Part shown: positions 6,234 through 26,865 of the stretch, in pieces | Layout of the letters: each line of letters opens with the position of its first letter | How positions within the stretch are numbered: position 1 is the stretch's first letter | Assembly (NCBI RefSeq): GCF_001552535.1 | Contig: NZ_BCRJ01000011.1 | Coordinates: 1 to 64,000, forward strand | Direction of reading: 5' to 3' | Length of the DNA: 64,000 nucleotides | Source: Nocardioides jensenii JCM 1364 = NBRC 14755 | GTDB lineage: Bacteria > Actinomycetota > Actinomycetes > Propionibacteriales > Nocardioidaceae | The notes under the pieces: model-generated | Told to the model about the DNA's origin: nothing | Database searches by the model: none | The model's input: only the letters and a program-made list of their open reading frames with translations | Translations under genes and position numbers: made by a program

Positions 6234-6380
6234 GTCGGCTCCCTCGGGGTTTGGCAGGGCCGCGAGCGTGCGGCCCCGACCTGAAACCCTACCGACGGCG
6301 GCCGCCGGAATACTCCAAAAAACCAGGGGCCCTCTACGCCGGCATGATTCGGCGCTGCCCCGCTGGGCATGACGTCCTGT
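6234..6380. other. Intergenic gap between defence pair and DUF1173 gene
   Basis: It holds the presumed promoter of the methyltransferase; a TAGGGT-like -10 element can be read on the minus strand near 6290. A 7-bp GC hairpin (arms gggccgc and gcggccc) lies near 6258-6277. No gene is seen. Confidence 0.35.
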
Positions 6381-7670: not shown

Positions 7671-7754
7671 GCCCGGAGAAGCAACGAACCCACGCGCCGA
7701 TCGGACGCCTCGCGCCGGGCCGGCCTGAACTTTTTCCACATCTTCTCGCCGAGG

Positions 7755-7787
7755 TGTCCGATCTGCGGTCCGGGTGGGTGCCTTTCG
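7755..7787 (+). promoter_or_regulatory. Conjugation promoter motif, copy A
   Basis: TGTCCGAT (7755-7762), 15 nt, then GTGCCTTTCG (7778-7787). One of five copies with identical spacing (others at 29740, 42723, 48092, 52621). It lies about 75 nt before the GTG start of the methylase-helicase operon. The second box deviates most among the copies (GTGC rather than TTGC). Confidence 0.6.
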
Positions 7788-7806
7788 TGGTGAGGGCGGT
7801 GGTGAG
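7787..7806 (+). repeat. GTGGTGAG direct repeats, 12-bp phase, helicase promoter
   Basis: Two GTGGTGAG copies at 7787 and 7799, exactly 12 bp apart, immediately after promoter copy A. The same octamer with the same 12-bp period occurs upstream of the sigma-like gene (41701, 41713, 41725), so this looks like a binding array for a shared regulator. Confidence 0.45.
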
Positions 7807-7861
7807 CCGTGGCGTGGGTGTCGCGGCCGGCGTCCTCGCCAACTGGTTGGAGGTGCCGGGC

Positions 7862-10800
7862 GTGGCGCGACGGCGTGCGAGTGTTGCTGACTCTGATCAG
7901 CTGGCGCTGTGGGATCTTGGTGAGGAACCTGGTGACCAGGCCGGTGAGGTCACCAGCGAGGGCGAGCTCCACACGGGCAGCTCCCTGCAGGTCGTGACGG
8001 AGGAAGGGGCTCGGTATGAACCCGTACGGGACGCGGATGCGGGAGCACTACGCGAAGCATCGGGCCACGGAGTTGGCGGCGATCGCCGATCCGGAGAGTT
8101 TCTTCGAGGAGCTGGGGCTGCAGATCGAGACGGAGATCGACACGTTGGCGGACGAGATCGCCGGCCCGTCGGACCCGTCGGAGGGCTACCTGGAGCGCGT
8201 GGGCCGGCTGACCGAGGCGAGGACGACGGCGGAGTCGGAGGTCCTGCGGCAGCACATGAGGCCGGGTCTGACGACTCCCCCGAACACGTAACAACCGCGG
8301 CAGACCTCGTCGTCGACGTACAGCCGGCGACTGCGACCGCTCCGACGGGAGCGCCGGCGGTGGAACCTGCCGGGCTGATTCCTTCCGGGGAGTCGCTCCG
8401 GTTCCGGCCGGGCTCGCAGCGGGACCTGGCACCGTCGACGCCACGGGAGCGGCTGACCGCGAACGTGGCTGTGCTGGAACTGCTCGCCCAGCTCGACGAG
8501 GAGAACAGGCTCCCCTCGGCGCAGGAACAGGGTGTGTTGGCGCGCTGGTCGGGTTGGGGGTCGCTGCCGGAGGTCTTCGACGACACCGCCAACCACAACG
8601 AGGCCGCGGCGCGGGCTCGCGAGCTGCTGCAGGGCCGCGTCCGTGCCGCTGCGGCACGGACCACGCTGAACGCGCACTACACCGACGCCGCTCTGGTCAA
8701 GGCTGTGTGGTCGGCACTCGGCGGAGCCGGGTTCGACGAGGCCTCCGGGGGCCGTGTCCTGGAGCCCGGCTGTGGGTCGGGGACCTTCATCGGGTTCGCG
8801 CCCGACCATGTCCGAGACGTGGTCGGCGTCGAGCTGGACCCGACCACTGCCCGGGTCGCGTCGCTGCTCTATCCGGCCGCGGACATCCGCGGCGAGTCGT
8901 TCGCCGAGACCCGGCTGCCCGAGGGAAAGCGGGACCTGGTGATCGGCAATGTTCCGTTCGCCGACGTCGTCCCGCACGACTCCACTCACAACCGGCTCGG
9001 GCTGAGCCTGCACAACTACTTCATCTACAAGAGCCTGCACCTGGTCCGCCCTGGTGGTGTCGTGGCAGTGCTGACCTCGCGATGGACGATGGACGCAGCG
9101 AACCCGGCCGCCCGGGACGCGTTCTCCGACATGGCGGACCTGGTCACCGCGTATCGGCTGCCGAACCAGACCCACCACCAGGCGGCCGGCACTGACGTGA
9201 TCACCGACCTGCTGGTCTTCCGGCGACGCCTCGAGGGCGAGGAGCCATTGGATCTCACGCCTGGCTGGCGGAATCTGGAGAGGTTGCCGTCGTTCCGGGC
9301 CGGGACCGGGCTCGAGGACGCCGAAGTCAATCTCAACTCGCTGTTCGTGCAGCAGCCGGCCCGTGTGCTGGGACGCCTCACGTCCCGCTCAGGCCGGTTC
9401 GGGCCCGAAGTCGCCGTCAGCCCACCGTTGACCAGCGAAGGTCAGAGCCTCGCCGAGTGGGTCGCAGCGGATCTGGAGCGCCAGCTCGGCTTCGACCTGT
9501 CCAACTACGCCGACGTACGGCCCCTGTTCACCCCTCCCCCGGCCCCGACTCGGCCCACCAGCGCCCCGGCGACCACGTCGTCGACGCCGAACCCGGCTGC
9601 CGGTCCGTCGATGCCGGGTATGCCGGTTCCGCATCCTCGTCGCGGTGCTGGCGAGGAGGAGCCGCTGATGCTGCCTGGGGCGGTGGTGCGGGCCGAGGGC
9701 CACTTCAGCATGGGCGCGGACGGCGGCTGGCTGCACGTGCGCGACGGCGTCCCTGAGCCACTGGAGGTGCCGAAGTCGCAGGCGCACGAGCTGCGGATGC
9801 TCACCGGGCTGCGCGACACGGTCGTCACACTGCTGGAGGCCGAGGCGACCACGCCCCTACCCGGTGACCTGCCGACGGCCGCCACCTTGCCCAAGGGGCC
9901 GAGCGCCGTGGGTGAGGAGCGGATGACGGCGCTGCGGGGGCGGCTGAACCGGCAGTACGACGCCTACGTCAAGCGGTACGGGCCGATCAACCGGGTCACC
10001 AGCCGCAACACCGGCCGGATCGACCCGAAGACCGGTGAACCGGTGCTCGCGCAGGTGCGGCCGCGGCAGGGAGGGTTCCGCGGCGACCCCCACTCTCCTG
10101 CCGTGTTCGCACTCGAGCACTACGACTCCGCGACCGGCACGGCCCGCAAGGCCGACATCTTCACCGAGCGGGTCGTCGCGCCACGGGTGTTGCGCACTCG
10201 CGCGGACTCCCCGGCCGATGCAGTGTCGCTGTGTCTGGACACCTACGGCGAGCTACGGACCAGCGAGGTCGCCCGGCTGCTCGGCGTCGACCAGACGCAG
10301 GCGGAGACCGAGCTGGAGGCGTTCGCGTTCGTCGACCCCGAAACCGTCAAGCGCACCGAGGACGGCTGGTCGGCCGCATGGGTGCCACGCGCGGATCTCC
10401 TTTCCGGGAACGTCCGTGCCCGGCTGACCCGGGTCGGAGAGGTCCTCGAGCAGCTCGTCGAGGGCGCTGCCGCGACGGGCGATGAGTCGGCACGGCCGAT
10501 GGTGCGCCGACTCCAGGCGGCCGAGACCGCGCTGACAGAGGTACTGCCCGAGGACCTGGGGCCGACCGAGATCGTCGCCCAGCTCGGCGTGCCGTGGGTG
10601 CCGGCCAAGACGGTGGAGCAGTTCCTGCGCGAGACGCTCGATGACCGCACCGTTGAGGTGGAGCATCCGGGCGGGTCCGTGTGGTCGGTGCGCGGAAACC
10701 GACACTCGGTGGCCGCCCGGAACACCTGGGGCACCGAGCGGGTCAGCGCGATCGACATAGTCCAGGCGTGTCTGGAGCAGCGGCAGATCCGGGTGACCGA

Positions 10801-11212
10801 CGAGACCCCGGATGGTCGTCGGATCCCGAACGAGACAGCCACCTTCGCCGCTCAGGAGAAGGCCGAGGCGTTGCAGGAGCGGTTCGTGACCTGGCTGTGG
10901 GAGGACCCCGACCGGTGTCAGCAACTGGTCCGCGCCTACAACGACAAGCTGAACGCGATCGTGCTGCGTTCCTACGACGTCGACGAGGCCAAGCACTACC
11001 CGGGCATGGCCCGTGTCCACGAAGGACGCCCGCTGCGGCTGCGGCCGCACCAGCACGCCGCAGTGGCCCGGATGGTGGCTCAGCCCTCGGTGCTGCTGGC
11101 CCACGAGGTCGGAGCGGGAAAGACTCTCGCTGCGGTGACAGGTGTCTCGGAGCTGCGTCGGCTGGGTCTGGTCCGCAAGCCGGCGGTGGTGGTGCCCAAC
11201 CACATGCTCGAG
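7862..11212 (+). pseudogene. N6-methylase/SNF2 helicase, N-terminal half, split by transposon
   Basis: The reading frame is open from well upstream. GTG 7862 is chosen because GGAGG precedes it by 8 nt, but the stretch to about 8290 overlaps another gene in a second frame, so the true start is unsure. The conserved part begins near 8395. A methylase domain has motif I LEPGCGSGTFIGFAP and a motif IV-like VIGNVPFAD. A proline-rich linker follows, then helicase motif I AHEVGAGKT and motif Ia VVVPNHMLE. The gene stops making sense after codon GAG (11210-11212). The next codons are transposon DNA, ending at a TGA at 11242. The matching remainder resumes at 24240. Such methylase-helicase proteins of about 1700 aa or more are common on actinobacterial conjugative elements and are thought to have anti-restriction roles. 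The helicase is cut between motifs I and II. Confidence 0.85.
8016..8291 (+). CDS. Small conserved-type hypothetical protein upstream of helicase
   Basis: 91 aa, starting MNPYGTRMREHYAKHR and containing PESFFEELGLQIETEIDTL and EGYLERVGRLTEAR. A strong Shine-Dalgarno (GGAGGAAGG) precedes the ATG, and codon choice has the high GC3 expected of a real gene here. It lies in a different frame from the helicase ORF that spans it, which suggests the helicase really starts downstream, near 8300. The protein is acidic and mostly helical. Function unknown. Confidence 0.65.
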   Translation: MNPYGTRMREHYAKHRATELAAIADPESFFEELGLQIETEIDTLADEIAGPSDPSEGYLERVGRLTEARTTAESEVLRQHMRPGLTTPPNT

Positions 11213-11215
11213 TTC
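11211..11215. repeat. Left junction repeat AGTTC of the thiamine transposon
   Basis: AGTTC occurs at the left junction (11211-11215) and again at the right junction (24241-24245). Recombination between the two joins helicase codons in frame, giving ...NHMLEFSREW. Excision at the codon boundaries instead gives NHMLEQFSREW, the expected family sequence. The exact crossover is not resolved. Confidence 0.5.
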
Positions 11216-11343
11216 TCTGCACCTGTCAAGGGCACGGCATGAGGCGCTCGTCCCGCATGCGGATCCCGCTTGGCACGGTCCGCGTGCCGATATCCCCTAC
11301 CGATGCGACTGCTGAGTCGTGGCGTATCGATAGAGTCGCCGCG

Positions 11344-11733
11344 ATGAAGACATTGGCCGCTAGCGCGGTGGTGAGGGATGCCGAGAACAAGGTTCTCCTG
11401 GTGCTTCGGTCACGGGAGCCTGATGCGGGATGCTGGAGTGTCCCGGGCGGGCGTGTCGAACTGGGTGAGTCCCTTGAGGATGCCGCGGTGCGGGAAGCAT
11501 TCGAGGAGACCGGACTCCACGTTGCCGTCGAACGAGAAGTGTGGTCGCTCGATGTCTCGAACGGCCCAGATGAGACCTTCGAGATTCACGACTTCCTGGC
11601 ACACGTTGTGGGTGGCGACCTGGTCGCCGGAGATGACGCCGCCGACGTTGGCTGGTTCGGACTGCAAGAGATGGAGGATATGCCGCTCACTCCTGACCTG
11701 GTGGCGTACCTCACTAAACACGGCGTCTTGTAG
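11344..11733 (+). CDS. Nudix hydrolase
   Basis: 129 aa from ATG 11344. The Nudix box GX5EX7REUXEEXGU is intact as GGRVELGESLEDAAVREAFEETGL (in the stretch 11446-11517). Nudix enzymes hydrolyse nucleoside diphosphates linked to another moiety. Substrate cannot be told from sequence. On this transposon, next to the thiamine genes, hydrolysis of HMP pyrophosphate, thiamine pyrophosphate or damaged thiamine analogues is a reasonable guess. The gene is complete and ends 13 nt before the IS inverted repeat, so the IS did not break it. A possible -10 (TATCGATAG) lies about 20 nt upstream of the start. Confidence 0.85.
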   Translation: MKTLAASAVVRDAENKVLLVLRSREPDAGCWSVPGGRVELGESLEDAAVREAFEETGLHVAVEREVWSLDVSNGPDETFEIHDFLAHVVGGDLVAGDDAADVGWFGLQEMEDMPLTPDLVAYLTKHGVL

Positions 11734-11746
11734 TGCAAACGAAAGC

Positions 11747-13191
11747 GGCTCTTCCCAGATGACGGTGTAGCGAGCGCTGGCGCGGCGGTCCCGGGATAGA
11801 CGTCGAGGTCTCCCGAGGATGAAGGCTCCTACACGCTCAACCCGGAAGACCTCGACGTGCCCGACGCTACCGTCGGCGAGCGCCCAGACGCGTTCGCCCA
11901 CCCCGATCTGACCACCTTCTGCCGGCTCGACGAGCTCGGCCTCGTCGTCACCGGCCAGCGCCTCGAGCCCGGTCGTGCGGTCCTCGCCTGCCGGGTCGCC
12001 GAACCAGATCAGTGGTGCCGGCGCTGCGGCTGCGAAGGATTCCCACGCGACACGGTCACCAGGGAGCTGGCCCACGAGCCGCTCGGCTGGCGGCCCACGA
12101 TCTTGCTGGTCACCGTCCGCCGCTACCGGTGCGGTGGCTGTGGGCACGTGTGGCGCCAGGACACCACCTTGGCGGCCGAGCCCCGGGCGAAGCTCTCGCG
12201 GCGTGGGCTGCGGTGGGCACTCGAGGCGATCGTGGTTCAACACCTCACCGTCGCTCGGGTCGCCGAGGGCCTCGGAGTCGCGTGGGACACCGCCAACGAC
12301 GCCGTCCTGGCGGAGGGCAAGCGAGTCCTCATCGACGACCCAGCCCGCTTCGACGGCGTCCGGGTCGTTGGCGTCGACGAGCACGTGTGGCGCCATACCA
12401 GGCGTGGCGACAAGTACGTCACCGTGATCATCGACCTCACCCCGATCCGCGACGGCACCGGCCCAGCACGGCTCCTCGACATGGTCGAGGGCCGCTCCAA
12501 GCAGGTGTTCAAGACCTGGCTCGCCGCTCGCAGTGAGGCCTGGCGCGCCGGGATCGAGGTCGTCGCGATGGACGGGTTCAGCGGGTTCAAGACCGCCACG
12601 ACCGAGGAGCTCCCCGCCGCGGTCGCGGTCATGGATCCCTTTCACGTGGTGCGCCTGGCCGGCGACGCCCTGGACCGGTGCCGGCGCCGGGTCCAGCAGG
12701 CCATCCACGGCCACCGCGGCCACAAGGGCGACCCGCTCTACTCGGCCCGCCGGACCCTGCACACCGGCGCCGACCTCCTCACCGACAAACAGACCACCCG
12801 GCTCACCGCGCTCTTCGCCGTCGACGAGCACGTCGAGGTCGAAGCGACCTGGTCGATCTACCAGCGCATGATCGAGGCCTACCGTCACGAAGACCGACGC
12901 CACGGGCGCGAGCTGATGGTCAGGTTGATCGAGTCGGTGAGCCACGGCGTCCCGGCCCCGCTGAGCGAGGTCATCACACTCGGCCGGACCCTGAAGAAGC
13001 GTGCCGACGACGTCCTGGCCTACTTCGACCGACCCGGCACCAGCAACGGGCCGACAGAGGCGATCAACGGACGGCTCGAACACCTCCGCGGCTCAGCACT
13101 CGGGTTCCGCAACCTCACCAACTACATCGCTAGAAGCCTGCTCGAGACCGGAGGGTTCCGACCGCGACTACACCCTCGATTCGGATGAGCC
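11747..13191 (+). mobile_element. ISL3-family insertion sequence with 8-bp target duplication
   Basis: A 1445-bp element. The left end GGCTCTTCCCAGATGACG (11747 on) matches the reverse complement of the right end (13168-13191, GGCTCATCCGAATCGAGG); both continue into GGTGTAG, giving 24-bp imperfect inverted repeats. ACGAAAGC flanks it on both sides (11739-11746 and 13192-13199), an 8-bp target-site duplication as expected for ISL3. It lies inside the thiamine transposon, between the Nudix gene and the end of the thi operon. Intact repeats, duplication and transposase suggest recent arrival. Confidence 0.92.
11857..13188 (+). CDS. ISL3-family transposase
   Basis: 443 aa, full length for the family. 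An N-terminal zinc-finger-like region has paired cysteines (CRRCGC and CGGCGH). The DDE transposase domain shows the ISL3 pattern: VVGVDEHVWR with the first Asp, VAMDGFSGFK with the second, and a C-terminal Glu in GPTEAINGRLEHLRG. The stop codon lies inside the right inverted repeat. No frameshift is seen, so it may be active. Confidence 0.93.
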   Translation: MPDATVGERPDAFAHPDLTTFCRLDELGLVVTGQRLEPGRAVLACRVAEPDQWCRRCGCEGFPRDTVTRELAHEPLGWRPTILLVTVRRYRCGGCGHVWRQDTTLAAEPRAKLSRRGLRWALEAIVVQHLTVARVAEGLGVAWDTANDAVLAEGKRVLIDDPARFDGVRVVGVDEHVWRHTRRGDKYVTVIIDLTPIRDGTGPARLLDMVEGRSKQVFKTWLAARSEAWRAGIEVVAMDGFSGFKTATTEELPAAVAVMDPFHVVRLAGDALDRCRRRVQQAIHGHRGHKGDPLYSARRTLHTGADLLTDKQTTRLTALFAVDEHVEVEATWSIYQRMIEAYRHEDRRHGRELMVRLIESVSHGVPAPLSEVITLGRTLKKRADDVLAYFDRPGTSNGPTEAINGRLEHLRGSALGFRNLTNYIARSLLETGGFRPRLHPRFG

Positions 13192-13248
13192 ACGAAAGCT
13201 CCGGTTGGGATCCCAAATCGGATGCCGCTGGGCTGCCTGTCGACGCGC

Positions 13249-13268
13249 GGGGCCCATGTCAGGGCCCC
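13249..13268 (-). terminator. GC hairpin after thiamine operon
   Basis: Perfect 7-bp arms ggggccc and gggcccc around a 6-nt loop, 16 nt past the stop of the last thi gene. There is no T-run, so it may terminate weakly or act as an mRNA end stabiliser. Confidence 0.4.
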
Positions 13269-13283
13269 GGCGGACATCACTGC

Positions 13284-13919
13284 TCAGGTGCGGTGACAGG
13301 CCGCGTCGAAGAACTCCAGCTCCAGCTGCATGGCCCGTCCGTAGACGGTGCGGACCTCTGCGGTGTCGTCGGCGTAGACGTCGACGAGCCGCTCGATCGT
13401 CGCTGCGAGGCTCTCGAAGTCGGGGTCGGCGTAGGTGGCGACCCACCGGCCATAGGTGTCGCTGGTCGGGAGCGACAGCGACTGCCCAAGGTGCGCGTAG
13501 AGCCGCATGCAGGGCGTCAACGCGGCGCAGGTGACGCCGATGTCTCCTCGGGCCGCGATGGTCAGCAGGAAATCGGTGTATGCGAGTGTCGCCGGCACCG
13601 GCTCGACCGTCGACAGGTCGATTCCCCACTCCGCGGCGTACGACGCGTGCAGCCGCAGCTCCTCGCGCACGCCGATGAGCAGCTCTGCGAACGTGTCGAG
13701 CGCCATCCGATCCGGACTGTGCGCGAGCCCGAACCCGTAGGCCCGGCAGAAGGCCTCGAGGAAGAAGGCGTCCTGGGCCACGAAGTCCGCGAATGACTCG
13801 CGGGGCAGCGTCCCGTCTGCCAGTCGCCGGACGAACGGGTGCCCGAGCGCTTCCGCCGCCCGGTCTGCGTTGCGTGCCCAGAGGGCCTGCGAAAGGCTCA
13901 CGGCAGCTGTCTCGTTCAC
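13284..13919 (-). CDS. tenA: TenA family, cysteine type (thiaminase II / aminopyrimidine aminohydrolase)
   Basis: 211 aa from GTG 13919, which overlaps the stop of the upstream tenA-like gene (GTGA). TenA_C enzymes use a catalytic cysteine in a segment like the CAALTPCMRLYAHLGQ seen here, and YTDFLLTIAARGD is the usual upstream helix. The known reaction replaces the amino group of aminomethyl-HMP with hydroxyl, giving HMP for thiamine salvage. It is the last gene of the riboswitch-controlled operon. With no thiC in the window, salvage of pyrimidine seems to be the main HMP source here. Confidence 0.88.
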   Translation of the reverse strand: MNETAAVSLSQALWARNADRAAEALGHPFVRRLADGTLPRESFADFVAQDAFFLEAFCRAYGFGLAHSPDRMALDTFAELLIGVREELRLHASYAAEWGIDLSTVEPVPATLAYTDFLLTIAARGDIGVTCAALTPCMRLYAHLGQSLSLPTSDTYGRWVATYADPDFESLAATIERLVDVYADDTAEVRTVYGRAMQLELEFFDAACHRT

Positions 13920-14536
13920 GCCTCGTCCCCCAGGGCCATGGCCCAGAAGCGGGACTCGGCCTCCAGGACCGCCACGAACGCGGCCTCCACGTCCGGTTCC
14001 GCGGGCCGCGTCGCCACAGCGTCCGCCGCCTGCTCCAGGTCGCCGACGTAGGTCGCGAACTGTGGCGTCGTCCAGTGCGACACGAACACCCGGTAGGCCG
14101 GGGCACCCGGAGCCGCGAAGGACCAGGCGTCGAGGTAGACCCGTTCGATGGCCCACAGCGCGGTGAGCGCGACAGCCACGTCCGCGTCGTCGAGCTTCCT
14201 CAGCAGGGCCGAGTACGTCGCGGTCTCCGGCCTCGGCGGCTCCATGAGGTCGAGCTGGTGGGTGGCCGCCAGCTCCTCGAACCAGGTCAGCTCGTCGACC
14301 AGCGCCATGGCACCGCCGGCGAGGGCCGCCTGCGCCAGGCGCGGCGCCCTGGCGAGCAGCCTTCCCTGGAACGCGAGCAGGTCGGACACGAAGTGGTAGT
14401 CCTGCACGAGCCACGCCTCGAAGGCCGACTCGGTGACTGTCCCGTCGCGCACGGCTTCGAGGAAGGGGTGCTGGGTCGCGTGGCTCCAGGCGGCGGCATG
14501 GCGCAGCGGCAGACCGCCGACCGGCGTGTGGCTCAT
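13916..14536 (-). CDS. tenA: TenA family, likely glutamate type (TenA_E)
   Basis: 206 aa. It has the TenA/PqqC helical fold signatures (WSHATQHPFLEAVRDG, FEAWLVQDYHFV), but the catalytic-cysteine position reads ALWAIERVYLDAW with no Cys, so it belongs with TenA_E enzymes that use glutamates. Known TenA_E proteins act on formylamino- and aminopyrimidine breakdown products of thiamine. ATGA overlap with thiD upstream and GTGA overlap with the second tenA downstream. Two complementary TenA types side by side suggest a full salvage route. Confidence 0.85.
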   Translation of the reverse strand: MSHTPVGGLPLRHAAAWSHATQHPFLEAVRDGTVTESAFEAWLVQDYHFVSDLLAFQGRLLARAPRLAQAALAGGAMALVDELTWFEELAATHQLDLMEPPRPETATYSALLRKLDDADVAVALTALWAIERVYLDAWSFAAPGAPAYRVFVSHWTTPQFATYVGDLEQAADAVATRPAEPDVEAAFVAVLEAESRFWAMALGDEA

Positions 14537-15338
14537 CGGTGACTTCCTGTGAAGTGGTCCAGGGGGCCATGACCGTGACCGAGCTGCCAGGACGCCCCCC
14601 TGCTGAGCGCCAGGGACACGTAGTCCTTCGCCGTCCGGAGCGCCGTGGCCGGTACCGCTCCACCCGCCATCGCCGCGGCTGCTGCTGCGGCAAAGGTGCA
14701 GCCGGTGCCGTGGTTGTTGACCGTGTCGACGCGGGGCGCTGACAGCTCGTGGATCGACGTACCGTCCCAGACGACGTCGACGGCTTGCTCGGAACACTCG
14801 GAGACCGGGTGGCCGCCCTTGATCACGACGACGGCCGGGCCGAGCGCTCCCAGTGCGCGAGCAGCCTCGCGCTGCTCGGTGAGGCAACGGATCGTGGTGC
14901 CGAGCAGCACCTCTGCCTCGCGCAGGTTCGGGGTGAGGATGCGGGCGTGTGGCAGCAACGACTCGACGTAGAGCGACTCCGCCTCGGGATCGAGCAAGCG
15001 ATCGCCGCTGGAGGCCACCATCACGGGGTCGACGACGAGGTTCGGCAGTCGACCCGCCGCCGCGAGCTCCGCGACCGCGGAGACGATGGCGGGCGTGGCG
15101 AGCATGCCGGTCTTCACCGCGGCGACGGGCAGGTCCTCGAGGACCGCTTCGACCTGCTCGACGACGAACTCCGCGGGCACGACGTGGATGCCGTTGACGC
15201 CGCGGGTGTTCTGGGCGGTCAGTGCCGTGATGGCAGAGGCGCCGTAGACGCCGAGGGCAGCGAAGGTTTTGAGGTCGGCCTGGATGCCGGCGCCACCGCT
15301 GGAGTCCGAGCCGGCGATGGTCAGTGCGACGGCCGGAG

Positions 15339-15342
<4 letters not shown>
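14533..15342 (-). CDS. thiD: HMP/HMP-P kinase
   Basis: 269 aa from ATG 15342 ([19 protein letters not shown]), with an ATGA overlap to tenI upstream. It has the ribokinase-like signatures of ThiD: the N-terminal [41 protein letters not shown], and the C-terminal anion-hole motif [15 protein letters not shown]. It phosphorylates 4-amino-5-hydroxymethyl-2-methylpyrimidine twice to HMP-PP, the substrate joined to thiazole phosphate by ThiE. Single-domain length, not the ThiD-TenA fusion seen in some organisms. The two separate tenA genes follow directly. Confidence 0.95.
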
Positions 15343-18051
<2,709 letters not shown>

Positions 18052-18068
<17 letters not shown>

Positions 18069-18690
18069 CGTGGGCCCCCAACAGCCGCAGGAGCGTCCGC
18101 GTTGCCTCGACGGGATCGGGCGCGTCCGAGATCGCGGTCACCACGGCCACCCCGTGCACACCGGCCGCCACCAGGTCGGGAACGTGCTCGGCCCTGACTC
18201 CACCGATCGCGATGACCGGAACGTCGACCGCGCTGGCCACCGCGCCGATGGCGTCCGGACCCAGCGGGCCCGGCAACCCCGCCTTGGTCACCGTGCGGTA
18301 CGCCGGTCCCACGCCGAGATAGTCGGCGCCCGCAGCGACCAGCGCAGCCGCCTGCTCGGGACCGCGTGCGGTGCCTCCGATCAGATGCCCCGGCCCCGCG
18401 ACCCGACGTACCGCCGCGACCGGCAGGTCCTCGGCGCCCAGATGGGTTCCCGCGGCGCCGACGGCGAGTGCCACATCGACGCGGTCGTTGACGATGCACG
18501 TCGCCCGCGCCGGTGCGCAGAGCTCCATCACCCGACGCGCGAAGTCGTACAACTCGAGGTCGGTGCAGTCCTTTGCGCGGACCTGCACCACGGGAGCACC
18601 GGCGGCGACCGCCGCAGCCACCACACCGAGTGCGTCCCGGCCGTCGCGCGCATCGCTGACCACATGGAGACGACCCAGCTCGGTGCTCAT
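18052..18690 (-). CDS. thiE: Thiamine-phosphate synthase
   Basis: 212 aa from ATG 18690, overlapping the cytX stop (ATGA). It carries the canonical ThiE motifs that tenI lacks: VVQVRAKD, the pyrophosphate-binding CIVNDRVDVALAVGAAGTHL, and ADYLGVGPAYRTVTKAG, plus VIAIGGV. It couples HMP-PP and thiazole phosphate to thiamine monophosphate. Confidence 0.93.
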
Positions 18691-20039
18691 CGCAGGCGTC
18701 CTTCTCTCCGGGCGCGCACCGCGGTCGGCAATCCGACGATCGCGGTGAGAGCCATCGCGACACCGAGGCTGACCAGGGAGGCCGACATGCCGTTGGCGGG
18801 GTCGATGCCCAGGTCCCCCTGGCGGGCGGACCACCACGCGGTCCAGCCCGCCCCGGGGCCGGCGAAGAAGGTCGGCAACGTGAGCTGGTAGGCAACGAAG
18901 CCGACTGCCCAGGGCACCACCAGCAGTGGCCTGGCCGGTGCCGTCGCCGACACGTTCCACGCTCCGCGGGGCAGCAGGTAGTAGGCCACGATCAGGACTC
19001 CGATCAACGGCACGAAGACCGAACCGATCAGGAACAGGAACGGCTCATAGGCCACGATGTCGAAGCTCAGTGCGAGCAGGGTCGCCACCGTGCCCACGCC
19101 CACAGCGAGGACCCGACGGTCCCACCGAGCCGCGATGTTCTGGCTCGACACGGCAGTCGAGTAGACGTTGGCGAAGGCCTCGTCCAGCTCCACGACCACC
19201 AGGACCAGGAGCGCGAGCCCACCCAGCGGGAGCGCCAGCAAGGCATCGATGACGTCCAGGCCCCCGGCGCCGTACGCCACCAGCGCGAGCATCCCCAAGG
19301 TGAAGAAGACGATGGTCGCCGCCCCGTAACCGACCGCCGCGCCCAGCCCGGCAGCCCGGGCGCTGCGAACGTGACGGGTGTAGTCGGCGGCCAACGGTGC
19401 CCACGAGGCCGGCAACGCGATGACCACGTCGACCGCGGTCCAGAACGACGTCGCGTTCCCCCCCGGGGCCCGGGCCGGCAAGGGTTGGCGGAGGACCTGG
19501 ACGTACAGGTACGCCACTGCCGCGAGGGCGACCCAGACCGCGTACCGCGCCAACAGCCGCACCACGCCCAACGGACGGAGGGCCATCAAGGTGGCCAACA
19601 CCCCCGCCGCGACGACGAACGGCCACCGCGGCGCGCCGACGATCCGAGAGGCCGCTTCGGCGATCACCACGATCTCGAACGTCGCCCACCCCACGCACTG
19701 GGCCAGGTTCGCCACCGTCGGCACGTACGACACCCGGCCGCCGAGCAGGCCACGCAGCAGCACCATCGCAGGGACGCCTTCACGTGCCCCCGGCGCCGCC
19801 GCCAGCCCCAACAGGACGCCGCCGATGACGGCGCCGACCACGATCGCGAGCAGGGTCGTCGACAGTGGCCGGTCCGGCAGTACGACGTACACGGCGGCCA
19901 CCGGCAGCAGCAGGCTGATGCCCAGGTTCCACCAGAACGCCGTGTTCGACGCGAGGCCGAGCGGCCGAGGCGGAGGTCCCTCCAGAGTCAGCGGAGCGTC
20001 CGGCACTCCGGCCACGTCATGCTTGACAGATGTATCCAC
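18687..20039 (-). CDS. cytX: NCS1-family permease, probable HMP transporter
   Basis: 450 aa with about 12 hydrophobic segments (first near residues 33-55: WWNLGISLLLPVAAVYVVL) and the NCS1 cytosine-permease layout. CytX proteins behind TPP riboswitches are predicted to import hydroxymethylpyrimidine. It is the first gene of the operon and starts with GTG 20039 only 5 nt after the riboswitch. The AGGGAG ribosome-binding site is the 3' end of the riboswitch itself. Confidence 0.85.
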   Translation of the reverse strand: MDTSVKHDVAGVPDAPLTLEGPPPRPLGLASNTAFWWNLGISLLLPVAAVYVVLPDRPLSTTLLAIVVGAVIGGVLLGLAAAPGAREGVPAMVLLRGLLGGRVSYVPTVANLAQCVGWATFEIVVIAEAASRIVGAPRWPFVVAAGVLATLMALRPLGVVRLLARYAVWVALAAVAYLYVQVLRQPLPARAPGGNATSFWTAVDVVIALPASWAPLAADYTRHVRSARAAGLGAAVGYGAATIVFFTLGMLALVAYGAGGLDVIDALLALPLGGLALLVLVVVELDEAFANVYSTAVSSQNIAARWDRRVLAVGVGTVATLLALSFDIVAYEPFLFLIGSVFVPLIGVLIVAYYLLPRGAWNVSATAPARPLLVVPWAVGFVAYQLTLPTFFAGPGAGWTAWWSARQGDLGIDPANGMSASLVSLGVAMALTAIVGLPTAVRARREGRLR

Positions 20040-20043
20040 GCGC

Positions 20044-20134
20044 GCTCCCTACGCCGGCATTACCCGGTCAGGTTCAAGCGGTCAGCGGCACATCCAGCCG
20101 CTATCTCAGCCCGGTTCGTCCGAGCTCCCGCACA
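20044..20134 (-). promoter_or_regulatory. TPP riboswitch (THI element)
   Basis: Read on the minus strand it contains the conserved CTGAGAT block, then CTTGAACCTGACCGGGTAAT and GCCGGCGTAGGGA, the classic thi-box sequence with its pyrimidine- and pyrophosphate-sensing arms. The terminal GGGAG doubles as the Shine-Dalgarno of cytX, so TPP binding should block translation initiation directly. A TAGGGT hexamer at 20146-20151 (minus) could be the -10 of the operon promoter. Confidence 0.95.
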
Positions 20135-20283
20135 CAACGACGCCCACCCTACACGTCGGTCGCAGGCCCGCCCGGGTCGAGCAAGTCGCAGACCTGACTG
20201 GCGAACGTCCCACAGTGAACGACGTACGAGAGCTGGGTGCGCCGGGCGCCGGCAGCAGATTTCGTCACCGCAAGCGGAACCCC

Positions 20284-20433
20284 CTACGGCAACGCCACAG
20301 GTTCACCGCGCCTGCGTGTGTACGAGCGTGCCGCAAGCCCTGTCCGCGACGATTCCCGGTGACGGGGCGACAACTGGGGTGAGCTGCCCGGCGAGTTCTG
20401 CGGCGTCGCCGGGTCGAGGTCGACGCTGCTCAC
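20284..20433 (-). CDS. 49-aa ORF coupled to tnpB, possible tnpC relic
   Basis: Its GTG (20433) overlaps the tnpB stop as GTGA, exactly where tnpC follows in Tn554-type operons. The product is short, rich in Ser, Pro and Arg, and shows no recognisable TnpC/DUF6262 helix-turn-helix. It is either a decayed tnpC or a chance coupled ORF. Confidence 0.3.
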   Translation of the reverse strand: MSSVDLDPATPQNSPGSSPQLSPRHRESSRTGLAARSYTRRRGEPVALP

Positions 20434-22862
20434 GCTTGTACTCCAATCGTGGGCATGCCGAGGACGGTGACGGTATCGCGGCCTCGGTCGACGTCGGCGA
20501 GTCGTCGGGTCTCTGCGCGTTTCTCGGCGAGGAAGCGCAAGGTGAGGTCGATGCCTTCGATCTCCCCGAGCCAGCCTTCAGTCTCGGCGTGTGCGCGGCG
20601 GGCGAGCAGGTCGGTGTGGATCTCGTCGAGCCGGGGGATCATCTTGGGGTCGACGAGCAGCATGGGGCAGCGGATGCAGGCGTGCTCGTGTTCGCAAGGT
20701 GTCGCGTAGGGGCGGCCGCATTGCCCGAGTTCGACCTTGCGATTGTCGAAGTGCTCCTCGAACTCGCCCCATTCCTGGTCGGTGACGGGCCGGTAGTCGG
20801 CTGCTGGGCGGGCGGCGCGGCGGTTGGCCAGGTGGGCCTGGTAATGGCGGATGACGTCTTCTTGGAACACGGTCACGTAGCCGTGGAAGGTCTGCACATC
20901 GAGGTGTCCGAGCAGGGCTGCGCCGATGTGGATGGGCAGCCCGTTGTTGGCCAGGTCGGTGGCGAACAAGCGCCGGAAGTCATGCGGAGTAAACCGGATC
21001 TTCGCCAGCTGCGGATGCTGCTTCGCGAGGCTGTGGCTGAGCCGGATCAGCATCGTGCGCAGCGCCGAGGGAGTGATCACCTCGGTGCGCTGCCCGATGG
21101 TGCGTTGGAACAGGAACGGCTGCGGTTCGCTGGTGACGTGCTCGTGCCGGTCGTAGCGGGTGGCCAGCGCGATGGTCGGACGGTCACGGGTCAGGCGCCG
21201 GATGATCGTGGCGATGACGTGGAACAGTTCGGCCGTCATCGGGATGACTCGTTCCCGATCGCTCTTCGAGGGGGCGATGACCAGCAGCGCGATCACCTCG
21301 CCGTTGGGTCGGACGTATTGCCGGATGCTGAGCTGGGACAGCTCGAGCATCTCTTCGTTGCGGACGCCGGTGTGGCGCAGGGTCTCGATGCAGGCCCACG
21401 TCCAGAACGCGGCGTCCTCGGCGTCGGTGAGGTTGATCGTCGTGCCGCTCTGTTCGTCGTTGACCCGAACGTTGGCGGCCCCGTGGTAGCGCTGATGGCG
21501 TGCGTCGCCGGCGCTGAAGATCCTGCTGTAGTGCCGACCGTCGACGACCAAACGTTGGCCGTGAACGGCGTCGGTCGCGGCAGTGAGCAGTGCGGCGAGG
21601 TGGTGGCGTCGCTGGTCGGCTGCTGCGACCAGGACCGGCAGCAGCGGCTGCAGGGTTCGGGTGCGGTGGTCGGTGCGTTCCTTGGCGCGTCGCAGCGCCT
21701 GGGTTCTGGCGCGGCCGTCGCGGCCGCTGATCGGGCAGGGCGCTGCCCAGCGGGCCCAGTGTTCGGGTTCGTGGGTGGCCCAGCCTTGGATGTCGAGGTA
21801 GAGGGCTCGGACGTTGGTGACGATCCCGCTGGCGCCCAGTCGTGGCTTCCCGTCGCGTCGGACATCGACCGCGGCCCGCCACGCCTGGTAGGTCTCCTCG
21901 GACAGGGCGAGATCGGTCTGGGCGGGATTGATCGTTTCGATCTCGCGCCAGAAGAGGTCGCAGAGGTCCCGGGCAAGCCCTCGCAGGGTCGAGTGGTCCA
22001 GGTCGTGGCTGCGGCGCGTCAGGTAGGCCGTCAACATCTCGGTCACGTCTCGGTTGGCCAGATCGTAGGAATCGACAAGCTGAGCCGGGGTCATCGCCGG
22101 GGCGCGCATCGCGCCGCGCAGCGTGGCGGGCACACCGGGTGGGAAGTGCCCGCTGTGGTGCAGGACCTGCCAGGCGAGGTGTCCGATGTGGTGCTCGTAG
22201 CCGGCGCCGTAGCGGCCGCGGCGCGTCTCGACCGCGTGGTGCAGGAACCCCTCGGCGGTCAGGTCGGCCAGCTCGATGCCCTGGGTGGTCAGGGCGCCGG
22301 CAACATCCATCCTCGCGCAGCGCTTGTAGTGGAGCGAGGTGTTGGTCTGATCGACCAATGCCAAGAACCGCTCCAGACTCGGATCCACTTGGGCAGCCTC
22401 GAAGTCCTGGAAATAGTGTTTGAACCGGTTCCCGCGGAATGCAGGCAGGGACGGGCGGATCACCCGCAGGCAAAACAGCAGCTTCAGCGCGTGGCCTGCG
22501 TGCTCGCGGTGCGACGGCATGGTGAACAGGTCGCGAACCGGGGTGATACCCGCGTCCAACCCGGACGCGAGCCACCGTTCCTGCCACGTCTCGCCCGGAT
22601 GCTCGGCCAGGCGTGCGAGCAGGTGGCGCAGCCCGATGCGGCGCTCCGAGGAGCGGGACTGAACAACCGGCCAGATCTCGTCGGCGATCCCTGCGATCTG
22701 TTCCGCGGTCGCAGTGTCCAGGTTCCCATGCGGGCGTGGCGGGACCGCGGGGGCCGGGGACGGTGACGGGGTGATCACCTGCCGGGCAGCCAGCTGCCGA
22801 CGCGGGCGCGCCGGGGCTTCGGGGCGCAGCGCGCGTTGCTTGGTGTGTCGTCGCTCAGCCAT
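20430..22862 (-). CDS. tnpB: Tyrosine recombinase, TnpB of Tn554 type
   Basis: 810 aa from ATG 22862 (MAERRHTKQ), 2 nt beyond the tnpA stop; an ATG at 22889 is an alternative. Catalytic residues of the tyrosine recombinase family are visible: Arg in TGVRNEEMLELSQL, His-x-x-Arg in FTPHDFRRLFATDL, the second His in LLGHLDVQT, and Tyr in FHGYVTVFQE. The C-terminal cysteine/histidine cluster CGRPYATPCEHEHACIRCP is a hallmark of the long TnpB-type recombinases. The extended N-terminus of about 350 residues is also usual. It acts with TnpA in site-specific insertion. Confidence 0.9.
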   Translation of the reverse strand: MAERRHTKQRALRPEAPARPRRQLAARQVITPSPSPAPAVPPRPHGNLDTATAEQIAGIADEIWPVVQSRSSERRIGLRHLLARLAEHPGETWQERWLASGLDAGITPVRDLFTMPSHREHAGHALKLLFCLRVIRPSLPAFRGNRFKHYFQDFEAAQVDPSLERFLALVDQTNTSLHYKRCARMDVAGALTTQGIELADLTAEGFLHHAVETRRGRYGAGYEHHIGHLAWQVLHHSGHFPPGVPATLRGAMRAPAMTPAQLVDSYDLANRDVTEMLTAYLTRRSHDLDHSTLRGLARDLCDLFWREIETINPAQTDLALSEETYQAWRAAVDVRRDGKPRLGASGIVTNVRALYLDIQGWATHEPEHWARWAAPCPISGRDGRARTQALRRAKERTDHRTRTLQPLLPVLVAAADQRRHHLAALLTAATDAVHGQRLVVDGRHYSRIFSAGDARHQRYHGAANVRVNDEQSGTTINLTDAEDAAFWTWACIETLRHTGVRNEEMLELSQLSIRQYVRPNGEVIALLVIAPSKSDRERVIPMTAELFHVIATIIRRLTRDRPTIALATRYDRHEHVTSEPQPFLFQRTIGQRTEVITPSALRTMLIRLSHSLAKQHPQLAKIRFTPHDFRRLFATDLANNGLPIHIGAALLGHLDVQTFHGYVTVFQEDVIRHYQAHLANRRAARPAADYRPVTDQEWGEFEEHFDNRKVELGQCGRPYATPCEHEHACIRCPMLLVDPKMIPRLDEIHTDLLARRAHAETEGWLGEIEGIDLTLRFLAEKRAETRRLADVDRGRDTVTVLGMPTIGVQA

Positions 22863-24192
22863 CGACCTCACCCGCCGAACTGTCGCCACCGAACACAGTC
22901 TTGAAGTCGGCGTCGTCGTAGCCCGGCGTCGGCGTGGTCGCGGGGCGGGCCGCGGCGTAGTGCTTCTGCAGCCGGTCGAAGACCTCTTCGACCCGGGGTC
23001 GCAGATAGGGGTCCAGGGACGTCACATGCTGGTGCCGGGTGACGGTCATGACGTCCTCCAGCGTCAGGTTGGGGTCAGCGGTCATCCGCTCGATCGTGGT
23101 GTGCCGCAGATCGTGCAGCGTCCAGTCCGTGCCCAGCAGATCGTTCGCGCGTTGCAGCACCCGCCGTGCGGCGAAGTACGACAGCGGCCGTGGCTGGCTG
23201 CGCAGGGTGCGCCAGATGACCTCGTCGCCGGCGGGCGTGCCGCGCTCGTCGAAGTAGACCGCCAGCAGCCGCAGCGCCTCCGGCGAGGTAGGAACCGGCT
23301 GTAAAGCGCGTGTGCCCTTGCTGATTACCCAGAGCTGCTGTCGGGTCCAGTCCACCCGGTCGCCGGTGACGCCAAGCAGTTCGCTGGCCCTGGCCCCCGT
23401 GGACAGGAACAAGGCCAGTAGCGCCCGGTCGCGCGCGTTACGCATCGCAGCGAGCAGTTCGGCGGCCAGCTCGTCTGGGAGAGACCGCGGGACCAGCTCG
23501 GCCGACTTCTGTCGCAGCGGCGCGCGGCGGTGCTGCGGCCGCGGTTCGAGCGGACTACGGTGCGCCAACCGTGCGCGGCGAGTAGAGCTCGCCGGCACCG
23601 GGTTGCTGACTGGGCCACGGCCGAACTGGGCGTGGAAGGCGTAGAACGAGGACAGCACCGAGAGGGTGTGGTTGATCGTCGCCGGCGCGTACCCCGACCC
23701 GAGCGCGCGCTTGCCTGTGCGATGGTTGACCGACGCCATCGACGTCGACGTCGATTTCGATGTCGACGGGTTGCGGCGGCGTTGCGGGTTGTCGGCTGTT
23801 CGCATCCAGCCGACCAGAACCTCGACATCGGCGCGCGTCGCACGATCCCAGTCGACCTCGAGCGCGTGAAGCAGCCGACACCAGCGCAGCAGGTCCTGGG
23901 CGTAGGAGCGCGCGGTGAGCGGGCTCATGTCGGTGAGCATCAGGTCCCGCAAGAACGCCGAGAACGGCTCGACCTCCTCGCCGTGCTCGTCGACGACAAC
24001 GAACGGCAACGACGCCGTTACGCCGGCGCGTACCGCTCCCGTTCGAGGCAATTGCTCGCCACCATCCATCAGAGCCCGTCGGATCTCATTCACCATCGCG
24101 TCCAGCGCCTTCCGCTCAACCCGCCGGCGCGGGTGTCGCTGCCGGATGACGCCTGACCCATGGGAACCAGCCCGGGAATAAAGGGGGGTCAT
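22855..24192 (-). CDS. tnpA: Tyrosine recombinase, TnpA of Tn554 type
   Basis: About 445 aa if started at ATG 24192; in-frame ATGs at 24204 and 24096 are alternatives. An N-terminal SAM-like core-binding domain (LTARSYAQDLLRWCRLL) precedes a catalytic domain with Arg in STGARASELLGV, His-x-x-Arg in LHDLRHTTIERM, His in VTRHQHV, and Tyr in SLDPYLRP. A TTGACT (24228-24233) and TGAAAT (24204-24209) pair spaced 18 nt on the minus strand makes a promoter placed at the very tip of the element; with it, ATG 24192 would be almost leaderless. The long Ser/Thr/Arg-rich insert near residues 130-160 is unusual. Confidence 0.9.
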   Translation of the reverse strand: MTPLYSRAGSHGSGVIRQRHPRRRVERKALDAMVNEIRRALMDGGEQLPRTGAVRAGVTASLPFVVVDEHGEEVEPFSAFLRDLMLTDMSPLTARSYAQDLLRWCRLLHALEVDWDRATRADVEVLVGWMRTADNPQRRRNPSTSKSTSTSMASVNHRTGKRALGSGYAPATINHTLSVLSSFYAFHAQFGRGPVSNPVPASSTRRARLAHRSPLEPRPQHRRAPLRQKSAELVPRSLPDELAAELLAAMRNARDRALLALFLSTGARASELLGVTGDRVDWTRQQLWVISKGTRALQPVPTSPEALRLLAVYFDERGTPAGDEVIWRTLRSQPRPLSYFAARRVLQRANDLLGTDWTLHDLRHTTIERMTADPNLTLEDVMTVTRHQHVTSLDPYLRPRVEEVFDRLQKHYAAARPATTPTPGYDDADFKTVFGGDSSAGEVDG

Positions 24193-24239
24193 TGCACTCG
24201 GCAATTTCAGGGCGGGTTCCGAAGTGCAGTCAACAGGAC

Positions 24240-26711
24240 CAGTTCAGCCGGGAGTGGCTGCAGGCCTACCCGCAGGCCCGCATCCTCACCTGTGGCACCG
24301 AGGATCTGGTCAAGGACAAGCGACAGCTGTTCGTCGCCCGAGCCGCGACCGGCGAGTGGGACGCGGTCATCATGTCCCGCTCGGCGTTCGAGAAGATCCC
24401 GGTCTCCAAGGACACCGAGGAGGCTTACCTCGACGAGCAGTTGACCCAGCTGCGGATGTGGCTGGCCGCCTCGAAGTCCGAGCGCGGCCTGTCGGTGAAG
24501 CGGCTGGAGGGCACACTGGCGCGGGCCGAGGAGCGGTTGAAGAAGCTGCGCGACGTCGAGCGTGACCCCGCGATCACCTTTGAGGCCACCGGGATCGACT
24601 ACCTGTGCGTGGATGAGGCGCACGGCTACAAGAACCTCCGGCTGGCCTCCAACATCCCCGGTGTCGCCGTGGACGGGTCGAACCGGGCCACCGACTTGGA
24701 CTTGAAGATGTCCTACCTACGCGGCCGCCACGGCCGCCGGGTGGCCACGTTCATGACCGCGACCCCGATCGCCAACAGCGTGGCCGAGGCGTACACGATG
24801 CTGCGCTACCTCGCCCCCGCTGACCTGGAGGCGGCGGGGATCAGCGACTTCGACACTTGGGCGGCCACCTTCGGCCAGGTTGTCACCGACCTCGAGCTCT
24901 CCCCGTCCGGGACGGGCTTCCGGATGAAGGCCAGGTTCGCGAAGTTCAACAACGTCCCCGAGCTGCTGCGGCTGTGGCACCAGGTCGCCGACGTGAAGAC
25001 CGCCGACGACCTCAGCCTGCCCACCCCCGACCTCGAGGGTGGAGCGCCGGAGACGGTGGTGGTGCCGCCGAGCCAGGAGCTGGTCGACTTCATGGCCTTG
25101 CTCGCGCAGCGGGCCGATGCCGTTTCGTCGCGGGCGGTCGACCCGAGCGAGGACAACATGCTCAAGATCAGCGGCCACGGCCGCGCGGCCGCGCTCGACC
25201 TACGGCTCGTCGATCATCAGATCGACGGCCTGGGCGCGTTCTTGGACCGTGAGCCCTCGAAGGTCGATGCGGTTGCCGAGCGGGTCGCCGGCATCTACCA
25301 CGACCACGCCGACGTGGTCTTCGGCGCCGACCCGGAGCCGGGCGCGCTGCAGCTGGTGTTCTGCGACCTGGGTACGCCGACCGGGGCGGGCTGGAACGCC
25401 TATGAGGAGCTCAAGGCCCAGCTCGTCGCCCGTGGCGTGCCGGCGCCGAAGGTCCGGTTCATGCACGAGGCCAACAACGACCGCGCGAAGGCGCGGCTGT
25501 TCGAGCAGGCCCGCACCGGCCATGTCGCGGTACTGGTTGGGTCGACGGAGAAGATGGGTGTGGGCACCAACGTGCAGCGCCGCGCGGTCGCGTTGCATCA
25601 CGTGGACTGCCCGTGGCGGCCCGCCGACCTTGCGCAGCGCGACGGCCGCATCATGCGGCAGGGCAACCTGAACGAGTCCGTCCGGGTGTACCGATATGTC
25701 ACCGAGTCGAGTTTCGATACCTACCTGTGGCAGACGGTGGAGCGGAAGGCGAAGTTCATCAACCAGCTGATGCGCGGCCGGCTGGATGTGCGCGAGATCG
25801 AGGACATCGGCGACTCTGCGCTCTCCTACGCCGAGGTAAAGGCCCTCGCGTCGGGCGACCCGAGGATCATGGAGTTGGCCAAGGCCGAGACCGACACGAC
25901 CAAGCTGGAGCGACTCGAGCGGGCCTGGAGCGCAGCCCAGCGCAGCCTCGCGGCGACGATCCGGGAGGCCGGCCCCCGGCTGGAACGACTCGCGACCGAC
26001 CGCGAGCAGCTGATCGCGGCGATGCCACTGCGCCGCGACACCGACGGCGACGCGTTCTCGATGCGTATCAACGGCGCGGCCTACGGCAAGCGAGCCGACG
26101 CCGCCCCGGCCCTGCAGCGGGCCCTGCTCGCGGTGCAGCCATACCAACGCGACCCCCAGCCGCTCGGTGACGTGGGCGGGCTGCACCTGCAGGCGACCGC
26201 GGACTCGTGGATGGGCCAGCCCCGCTACGTCGTCTCACTCGTCGAAGTGCCGCGCGTGCACCTGCTCGTCGAGGCCGGCGACGTCCGTCAACCGAACATC
26301 GGCCTGGTGACGCGGGCCGAGAACCTCCCCCGGCGCCTGGAGCGGGTGCTCGACGAGGTCGAGATGGACACCACCAAGATCACCCGCGAGGCCGAGAAGG
26401 CCCAAGCGGGCCTGGCCGACGCCTTTCCGCGTGCCGGCGAACTCGCCGAGGTCCGCGCGACGCGGGACCGGCTCTCGGCCGAGCTGGCCGCCGACAGCGC
26501 CGAGAAGGCCACCGCCGAACACGCGACCGAGCATGACCCCACTGCCCCGGGTACCCCTGCGGTTAACGGATACCGGCCCGACACCCCACCCAGTCCGCCT
26601 GCCCAACCGGGTGAGACGAGTCGCCCCGCGATCGCGCCGCCGGCCCCTTCCCCGCCCGCTCGACCTGGCGAGCGTCCGCGGCCACCGGGCACGCCGGGGT
26701 GGTCACGATGA
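24240..26711 (+). pseudogene. N6-methylase/SNF2 helicase, C-terminal half
   Basis: Continuation of the gene broken at 11212, starting QFSREWLQAYP. It carries helicase motif II (CVDEAHGYKNL), motif III (FMTATPIANSVAEAYTM), and the C-terminal lobe with VLVGSTEKMGVGTNVQRR and motif VI RDGRIMRQGN, then a coiled-coil-like tail and a Pro-rich end. An in-frame TTG at 24192 inside the transposon could give a truncated product, but helicase motif I would be missing, so no ATPase is expected. The coding frame has stayed clean, which points to a recent insertion or to reversible excision. Confidence 0.88.
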
Positions 26712-26865
26712 GCACGGGCTGGTCCAACTCCTGCCCACAGGCGGGGCGTGGCCGACTGTTGTCCACCGGTTCGGGCGCGCCGGATGCGCTGTGCTGGCCG
26801 ATTCTGTTGCACTGGGCAGCGGGGTAGAACTCCACTGCCGACCCCTCTGGAAAGGACCACAACTG

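Follow-up and report, generated by a model that had tools for sequence, protein, structure and literature searches.

A thiamine operon under riboswitch control as probable cargo of a site-specific two-recombinase transposon in Nocardioides jensenii

The first 64,000 nucleotides of an 88-kb contig (C11; NZ_BCRJ01000011.1) in the 5.1-Mb genome of Nocardioides jensenii JCM 1364, here called the window, contain a set of thiamine (thi) genes within a helicase-like gene that is cut in two. This raises the question of what kind of DNA split the gene, whether it moves as a unit, and what its thi genes would give a cell that receives them. An earlier note on this DNA had proposed a Tn554-like transposon with a whole thiamine operon as its cargo. 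We conclude, with a probability of roughly 85%, that the insert is a 13,027-bp site-specific transposon that carries a foreign thi operon controlled by a thiamine pyrophosphate (TPP) riboswitch and that lies in a helicase-like gene of a backbone resembling plasmids pNOCA01 and pTC1. This conclusion is suggested by the ends of the element, by the empty site, by the use of the same base in a relative with other cargo, and by the conserved residues of the recombinases.

The helicase-like gene is uninterrupted, and annotated as a single coding sequence, in pNOCA01 (NC_008697) and pTC1 (CP000475), so that an intact allele of the kind whose absence the earlier note thought would speak against a transposon is present in two records. 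Alignments with both plasmids place the split at 11212/24240, exactly as first proposed, and compared with these empty alleles the insert is 11213 to 24239. By BLAST, window positions 6377 to 11212 match pNOCA01 4192 to 9000, and positions 24237 to 27188 continue from pNOCA01 8998; the pTC1 alignment breaks at window position 11212 and resumes at 24236. The few bases by which these restarts precede 24240 are identity at the edge of the insert. Inspection by eye gives the empty site as CTCGAG/CAGTTC in pNOCA01 and CTGGAG/CAGTTC in pTC1; in the window CTCGAG occupies 11207 to 11212 and CAGTTC starts at 24240. CTCGAG/CAGTTC is not repeated, which indicates insertion without target duplication. 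Window positions 27190 to 52000 match pNOCA01 of Nocardioides sp. JS614 (92.9% identity over 98%), which is typed as conjugative by PLSDB (MOBF relaxase, MPF_T), and the conjugation-type surroundings described in the earlier note are thereby borne out. The contig is probably a plasmid here, rather than an integrated copy.

Two tyrosine recombinase genes lie near the right end, also as first described. They overlap at 22855 to 22889 and run in the same direction; here the short protein is called TnpA and the long protein TnpB (Table 1). The residues R-K-HxxR-H-Y, which we take to be the catalytic motif of tyrosine recombinases, are invariant in 16 rows for the short protein and 15 rows for the long protein, counting rows in which a letter is present. 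Alignments and divergence figures are based on 15 of 25 recombinase loci. The C-terminus of the long recombinase has a Cys/His cluster conserved among the aligned rows (C724, C732, H734, H736, C738, and C741), which looks zinc-finger-like, by appearance only. In a sample of 293 genomes of the order, the long recombinase is matched at an E value of ≤1e-60 in 14, its own genome included, and only N. lacusdianchii (G196) is >60% identical over most of its length. Beyond the window, C11 carries a second, distantly similar pair at 84114 to 85127 and about 86633 to 87328 (L094), at about 31% for the short recombinase and 26% for the long one.

Recombinase pairs of this kind have been defined in actinobacteria as related to Tn554, some of them without TnpC (Van Houdt et al. 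2012; PMC3414803). In the part of that paper drawn on here, the long recombinase has 611 to 828 amino acids (aa) and the short one about 350 aa (Famint41/36), one such pair is catalogued on pNOCA01, and Famint41 is described as less related to Tn554; the short protein is likened to Tn554 TnpB and the long one to TnpA, the opposite of our labels. The present element shares with that class, as described there, an adjacent, same-direction pair of long and short recombinases (819 and 449 aa), the lack of a recognised TnpC, a place on actinobacterial plasmids, and a potential catalytic motif in both proteins. Its short recombinase is homologous to records in that paper (NC_008270, 40.3%; NC_008537, 43.8%), a comparison by homology and not by Famint36/41 clustering. 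Based on these comparisons we classify the element as a transposon with two recombinases that belongs to the actinobacterial Tn554-related class, a kind of element that is known, since Van Houdt et al. had already defined such pairs; relative to the part of their account used here, the ends, the target, and the cargo, a TPP-controlled thiamine operon, are what is worked out in this study.

With the Tn554 family in the strict sense the element has in common a preferred target base used without target duplication (in the window, in N. lacusdianchii locus L035, and at the right junction of N. caldifontis locus L045). It differs from the staphylococcal and enterococcal Tn554, Tn553, and Tn6674, with which it is compared by description and not by sequence, in belonging to another phylum, in having metabolic rather than resistance cargo, and in lacking both a recognised 6-bp footprint and a recognised TnpC gene beside the pair. 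The earlier label "Tn554-like" is correct at the level of the actinobacterial class. The sequence TTCTCT at the left end was tried as a Tn554-type 6-bp footprint and dropped, since it recurs at other flanks. A RIT element was also rejected, because this requires three adjacent tyrosine recombinases (315 to 410 aa in the archetype, according to the part of PMC10214605 used here), and the present element has two, of 449 and 819 aa.

When genome contigs were scanned for the long recombinase, 23 loci were obtained, without the record of the window itself; L033/L034 and L035 are one contig, L036 and L056 come from a single metagenome-assembled genome, and a single chromosome holds both L047 and L055. 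The N. lacusdianchii locus (L035) has this helicase gene split at the same base, by the same recombinase pair (87 to 88% aa identity). The junctions are CTGGAG/TTCTCTGCACCTGTCAAGGG on the left and GTGCAGTCAACAGGAC/CAGTTC on the right, with one flank base differing from the window. The ends are the same and the cargo is different: about 4 kb encoding a P-type ATPase, an ArsR-type regulator, and an NAD-binding oxidoreductase. In N. caldifontis (L045), the right junction is identical to that of the window, and the long-recombinase match ends at residue 314.

The ends also occur at other flanks. The right end is found at ≤1 mismatch in 10 of 215 genomes of the genus and is exact in 3, namely the window's own genome, N. 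lacusdianchii, and G762, in which the exact end stands beside the L056 flank. The exact right end is next to a different flank in both L056 and L180. At ≤3 mismatches, left-end-like sequences are present in L041, L042, and L050 and right-end-like sequences at many loci, and part of these matches are due to chance. L041 and L042 are convincing because their inner DNA is the same while their flanks differ, and L102 and L103 are convincing for the right end in the same way. On plasmid pA of P. ureafaciens (L103), the right end of a related element (7646 to 7661) is inside an annotated ParB-family gene. As far as the sequences tell, other members of the element family hit other plasmid genes.

Whether the window and N. 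lacusdianchii were hit separately can be judged from DNA divergence. Between the two, the recombinases are 87.9% identical, and the flanking gene is 73.1% identical in its N part and 79.4% in its C part; the flanks of the window are 86.3 to 89.3% identical to the empty plasmids. Since the recombinases are closer than the flanks and the window's flanks are near the empty plasmids, the two insertions look independent, and independent insertion at one preferred base is the simplest reading of this pair. An alternative is that the element is real but immobile, with one ancestral insertion in which the cargo was replaced in place through homologous recombination or an insertion sequence (IS) and with pNOCA01 and pTC1 as branches that were excised or never hit. 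This would account for the occupation of the same base in the window, L035, and L045, and a shared insertion would leave just the divergence seen between the window and L045 (recombinases 89.3%, flank 89.0%); the end of the L045 match at residue 314 and the IS inside the window's element also fit it. Nevertheless, we consider it unlikely, given the contrast between recombinases and flanks for L035, the nearness of the window's flanks to the empty plasmids, the exact right end at other flanks in L056 and L180, and the close pairs L102/L103 and L041/L042 at different flanks.

The cargo of the proposed transposon is a single operon on the minus strand, controlled by a TPP riboswitch and with the gene order cytX-thiE-thiO-thiS-thiG-tenI-thiD-tenA-tenA according to Pfam and NCBIfam matches. 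The chosen start codons give 4-base overlaps for several neighbouring genes. These matches and that of the riboswitch to RF00059 agree with the earlier account of riboswitch-controlled thi cargo. The description as a "whole" operon is right for import of the pyrimidine precursor hydroxymethylpyrimidine (HMP), salvage, thiazole synthesis, and coupling, and wrong in that there is no thiC; neither thiC nor thiF is among the assigned genes of the element, in which no unassigned stretch exceeds about 290 bases. The two tenA-family genes, one with the TPCMRLY motif and one without its Cys, presumably represent the TenA_C and TenA_E types, respectively. At 4 of 6 loci fetched, from 40 matched genomes other than the window's own, cytX-like genes likewise have a TPP riboswitch at their start or a short way upstream. 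At L134, L136, L137, and L138, which belong to other classes of the phylum, cytX-like genes have a riboswitch at their start, and the stretch contains no further thi genes resembling those of the cargo.

The element also contains an ISL3-family IS and, to its left, a NUDIX hydrolase gene. An 8-bp repeat of its own, ACGAAAGC, flanks the IS at both ends, which indicates a later, simple insertion. It is conceivable that this IS captured the thi operon and brought it in, in which case the recombinase transposon as such would not have the operon as its cargo, and a distance of 92 bp separates the IS from the operon's last gene. We give this explanation hardly any weight, because the repeat directly at both IS ends is what a single simple insertion leaves, because one ISL3 transposase open reading frame (ORF) only was identified in the element, and because operon and IS are both still inside the two element ends. 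An IS-flanked composite transposon was rejected as well, since there is a single ISL3 copy with its own repeat and not two bracketing copies. On a Tsukamurella plasmid, a NUDIX gene is a neighbour of thiE, so that the one here may belong to the thi set, which we mention as a lead only. The ISL3 insertion, the NUDIX gene, the cargo's lack of thiC, and the native thi genes of the host (see below) are absent from the earlier note.

Table 1. Features of the insertion and of the gene that it splits (window coordinates)
Feature	Position	Strand	Remarks
SNF2/helicase-like plasmid gene, N-terminal part	7643..11212	+	ORF runs to a stop at 11242 within the element
Element left end, TTCTCTGCACCTGTCAAGGG...	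11213..11239		Initial 20 bp identical in N. lacusdianchii
NUDIX hydrolase gene	11341..11733	+	Within the element, left of the IS
ISL3-family insertion sequence	11747..13191	+	Transposase 11857-13188; 8-bp repeats at 11739-11746 and 13192-13199
tenA-family gene 2	13284..13919	-	TPCMRLY motif
tenA-family gene 1	13916..14536	-	No Cys in PC motif; start chosen
thiD, HMP/HMP-P kinase	14533..15342	-	TIGR00097 above cut-off; start chosen
TenI/ThiE-like protein	15339..15917	-	TMP-TENI domain, under thiE cut-off; start chosen
thiG, thiazole synthase	15914..16723	-	355 bits; start codon chosen
thiS, sulfur carrier, C-terminal GG	16729..16929	-	
thiO, glycine oxidase	16935..18068	-	TIGR02352 above cut-off
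thiE, thiamine phosphate synthase	18052..18690	-	TIGR00693 above cut-off; start codon chosen
cytX-like NCS1 permease, putative HMP transporter	18687..20039	-	TIGR02358 216.2 bits, under 309.85 cut-off
TPP riboswitch RF00059	20029..20141	-	67.4 bits vs 54.3 gathering cut-off; overlaps cytX start region
Long tyrosine recombinase, 819 aa (TnpB here)	20430..22889	-	Pfam Phage_integrase; R510 K542 H636 R639 H662 Y671 invariant
Short tyrosine recombinase, 449 aa (TnpA here)	22855..24204	-	Pfam Phage_integrase; R272 K296 H364 R367 H391 Y400 invariant
Element right end, GTGCAGTCAACAGGAC	24224..24239		Identical in L035 (N. lacusdianchii), L045 (N. caldifontis), and L056
Split helicase gene, C-terminal part	24240..26711	+	Helicase_C domain; resumes empty-plasmid alignment

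The split helicase gene has further neighbours of note. Beside it are a gene for a protein of 1337 aa that has an Eco57I/N6-methylase domain (2220 to 6233) and a DUF1173 protein gene (6381 to 7739), the latter of which keeps the same position in pNOCA01 and pTC1, and a gene for a YhcG/DUF1016-type PDDEXK nuclease (27312 to 28385) is immediately to the right of the split gene.

The host has thi genes of its own. Contig C143 carries a second ThiG gene and a second riboswitch, with a thiE-thiO-thiS-thiG run into the contig end, and contig C157 starts with the end of tenI, followed by thiD, and also carries ThiC; based on gene order in relatives, C143 and C157 are probably neighbours. These native genes led us to reject the idea that the cargo is the only thiamine locus that the host has. 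On C86 there is a third riboswitch match, which scores 49.4 bits, under the 54.3 cut-off, and precedes a gene for a solute-binding protein; its neighbours, named by eye from ORFs, are a permease and an ATPase. A strong ThiG match is present in 22 of 47 same-genus relatives and missing from the other 25, of which two (G004 and G031) are <90% complete. In the 24 relatives scored for both proteins, the 9 with ThiC are the same 9 with strong ThiG, and 15 lack both.

These counts bear on the earlier suggestion that the cassette could spread thiamine prototrophy or salvage. A TPP riboswitch that controls nine thi-related genes, together with the 25 relatives in which no strong ThiG match was found and which show that recipients without the pathway exist, would be in keeping with a spread of full prototrophy. 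However, we regard this as highly unlikely. The element has no thiC, and since ThiC and ThiG co-occur, a ThiG-less recipient would still need HMP; the present host, for its part, is already equipped with thiC, thiE/O/S/G, and thiD. A cargo without ThiC would provide no HMP synthesis and so no prototrophy by the cassette alone. Salvage is the part of the suggestion that stands: in our best reading, from gene content, the element is a portable module for precursor salvage and coupling on a conjugative-plasmid backbone.

The origin of the cargo was addressed by comparison with the native copies, to which identity is 65% for ThiG, 39% for ThiO, 44% for ThiE, and 41% for ThiS. In maximum-likelihood trees of ThiO and ThiG, the native copy groups with the 14 rows from the same genus, along with a single row from the order; in both trees, a branch with a support of 100 (Shimodaira-Hasegawa-like approximate likelihood ratio test, SH-aLRT) separates this Nocardioides clade from the cargo copy. 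The trees were made by a quick maximum-likelihood method with midpoint root from the best tblastn piece per locus (≥180 residues; 57 ThiO and 55 ThiG rows), with uneven sampling, in that many rows come from searches ranked by cargo-ThiO likeness or by the ThiG profile and some genomes appear twice (e.g., L166/L169). Since the window rows are long-branched and in view of the method and root, the exact sister of the cargo copy is not resolved. The trees reject a thi operon ancestral to the genus and indicate that the cargo is foreign to it. The nearest larger gene sets among the loci fetched are from other classes of the phylum (in L169, ThiD 65%, ThiG 72%, ThiE 57%, and ThiO 54%), and no donor with the same full gene set was found among these loci.

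How common is such cargo? None of the 23 long-recombinase loci has thi matches in its flanks (E ≤1e-8; the best ThiS match has an E value of 0.97), with 10 kb available on the cargo side at 16 loci and 2 to 4290 bases at 7. The search for the same recombinase pair beside thi genes elsewhere, which the earlier note proposed, thus gave no second case. On three actinobacterial plasmids with thiG (pDK3 and those of Tsukamurella and Dietzia), the parts read, for which gene tables are incomplete, contain no annotated tyrosine recombinase; pDK3 has a short-recombinase match far away, at 511 kb. Near-complete operon DNA is not found on plasmids, as 0 of 408 matched records cover 80%, and the permease has no match in viral contigs. 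Plasmid matches to the operon include Rhizobium and Sinorhizobium plasmids, and the Rhizobium thiCOGE operons are likewise thiamine genes on plasmids; as far as the source used here goes, their name includes thiC, which the present cargo lacks. Among open-licence papers, searched by title and abstract opening, nothing was found on thi cargo of such elements. The earlier view that a vitamin cassette of this type is undescribed holds, as far as these papers go, for the cargo, and does not extend to the recombinase class, which is already described in the part of PMC3414803 consulted: what is new is the cargo, and what is known is the kind of element.

Several observations weigh against the transposon interpretation or narrow it. 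We infer mobility and its route from sequence alone. The terminal inverted repeat is weak, with 10 of 14 positions, and is reached by 106 of 2,000 shuffles; in L041, L042, and L050, the TTCTCT that forms the outer part of the left end turns up again at other flanks. A reversed control pattern matches 7 of 215 genomes, which means that the 7 genomes with a one-mismatch right end are background. No TnpC-like gene adjoining the pair was recognised, and the same-strand open stretches at 20141 to 20430 have ≤67 codons. The equal divergence of recombinases and flank between the window and N. caldifontis means that these two may share one insertion, and it is the N. lacusdianchii comparison alone that argues for repeated insertion. 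With respect to the cargo, cytX scores below its NCBIfam cut-off, so that the name is based on the family match together with the riboswitch and the neighbours, and the closest relatives of the operon have no convincing cytX or tenA match (none in L169; one cytX in L170, at 26% and an E value of 1e-4). Finally, with 0 of 23 loci carrying thi genes, this is a single case and could be a one-off.

If the transposon interpretation is correct, the recombinases made from the overlapping genes would bind the element ends and join them to the preferred target without duplication. When TPP is low, the operon would be switched on; CytX would import HMP, degraded thiamine would yield more HMP through the TenA proteins, and ThiD would phosphorylate it. 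ThiO, ThiS, and ThiG would make the thiazole with TenI, and ThiE would couple the two halves. The cassette would require external HMP or host ThiC, plus a ThiS-activating enzyme of the host. In the present host it would duplicate native genes and, with a TPP control of its own, add import, salvage, and gene dosage. A recipient without the pathway would obtain thiamine from imported or salvaged HMP, given a ThiS-activating enzyme.

Vitamin auxotrophy shapes dependence in soil and water, and the usual explanations for it are gene loss and cross-feeding. We tentatively propose, at somewhat less than even odds, that this transposon class resides on conjugative plasmids with exchangeable cargo at a fixed target, that the cargo here is a riboswitch-controlled salvage module, and that this module may turn thiamine auxotrophs into cells living on HMP or degraded thiamine, as a transmissible phenotype. 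It is part of the same proposal that the module may have been assembled from foreign parts, namely, a riboswitch-cytX unit, a thiE-O-S-G-tenI-D block, and two tenA genes. With its exact ends, two empty-site plasmids, and a same-base relative with different cargo, the locus would be a usable system for actinobacterial two-recombinase transposons. A mobile unit with its own TPP sensor and precursor import would allow this trait to be gained in one step via a conjugative plasmid.

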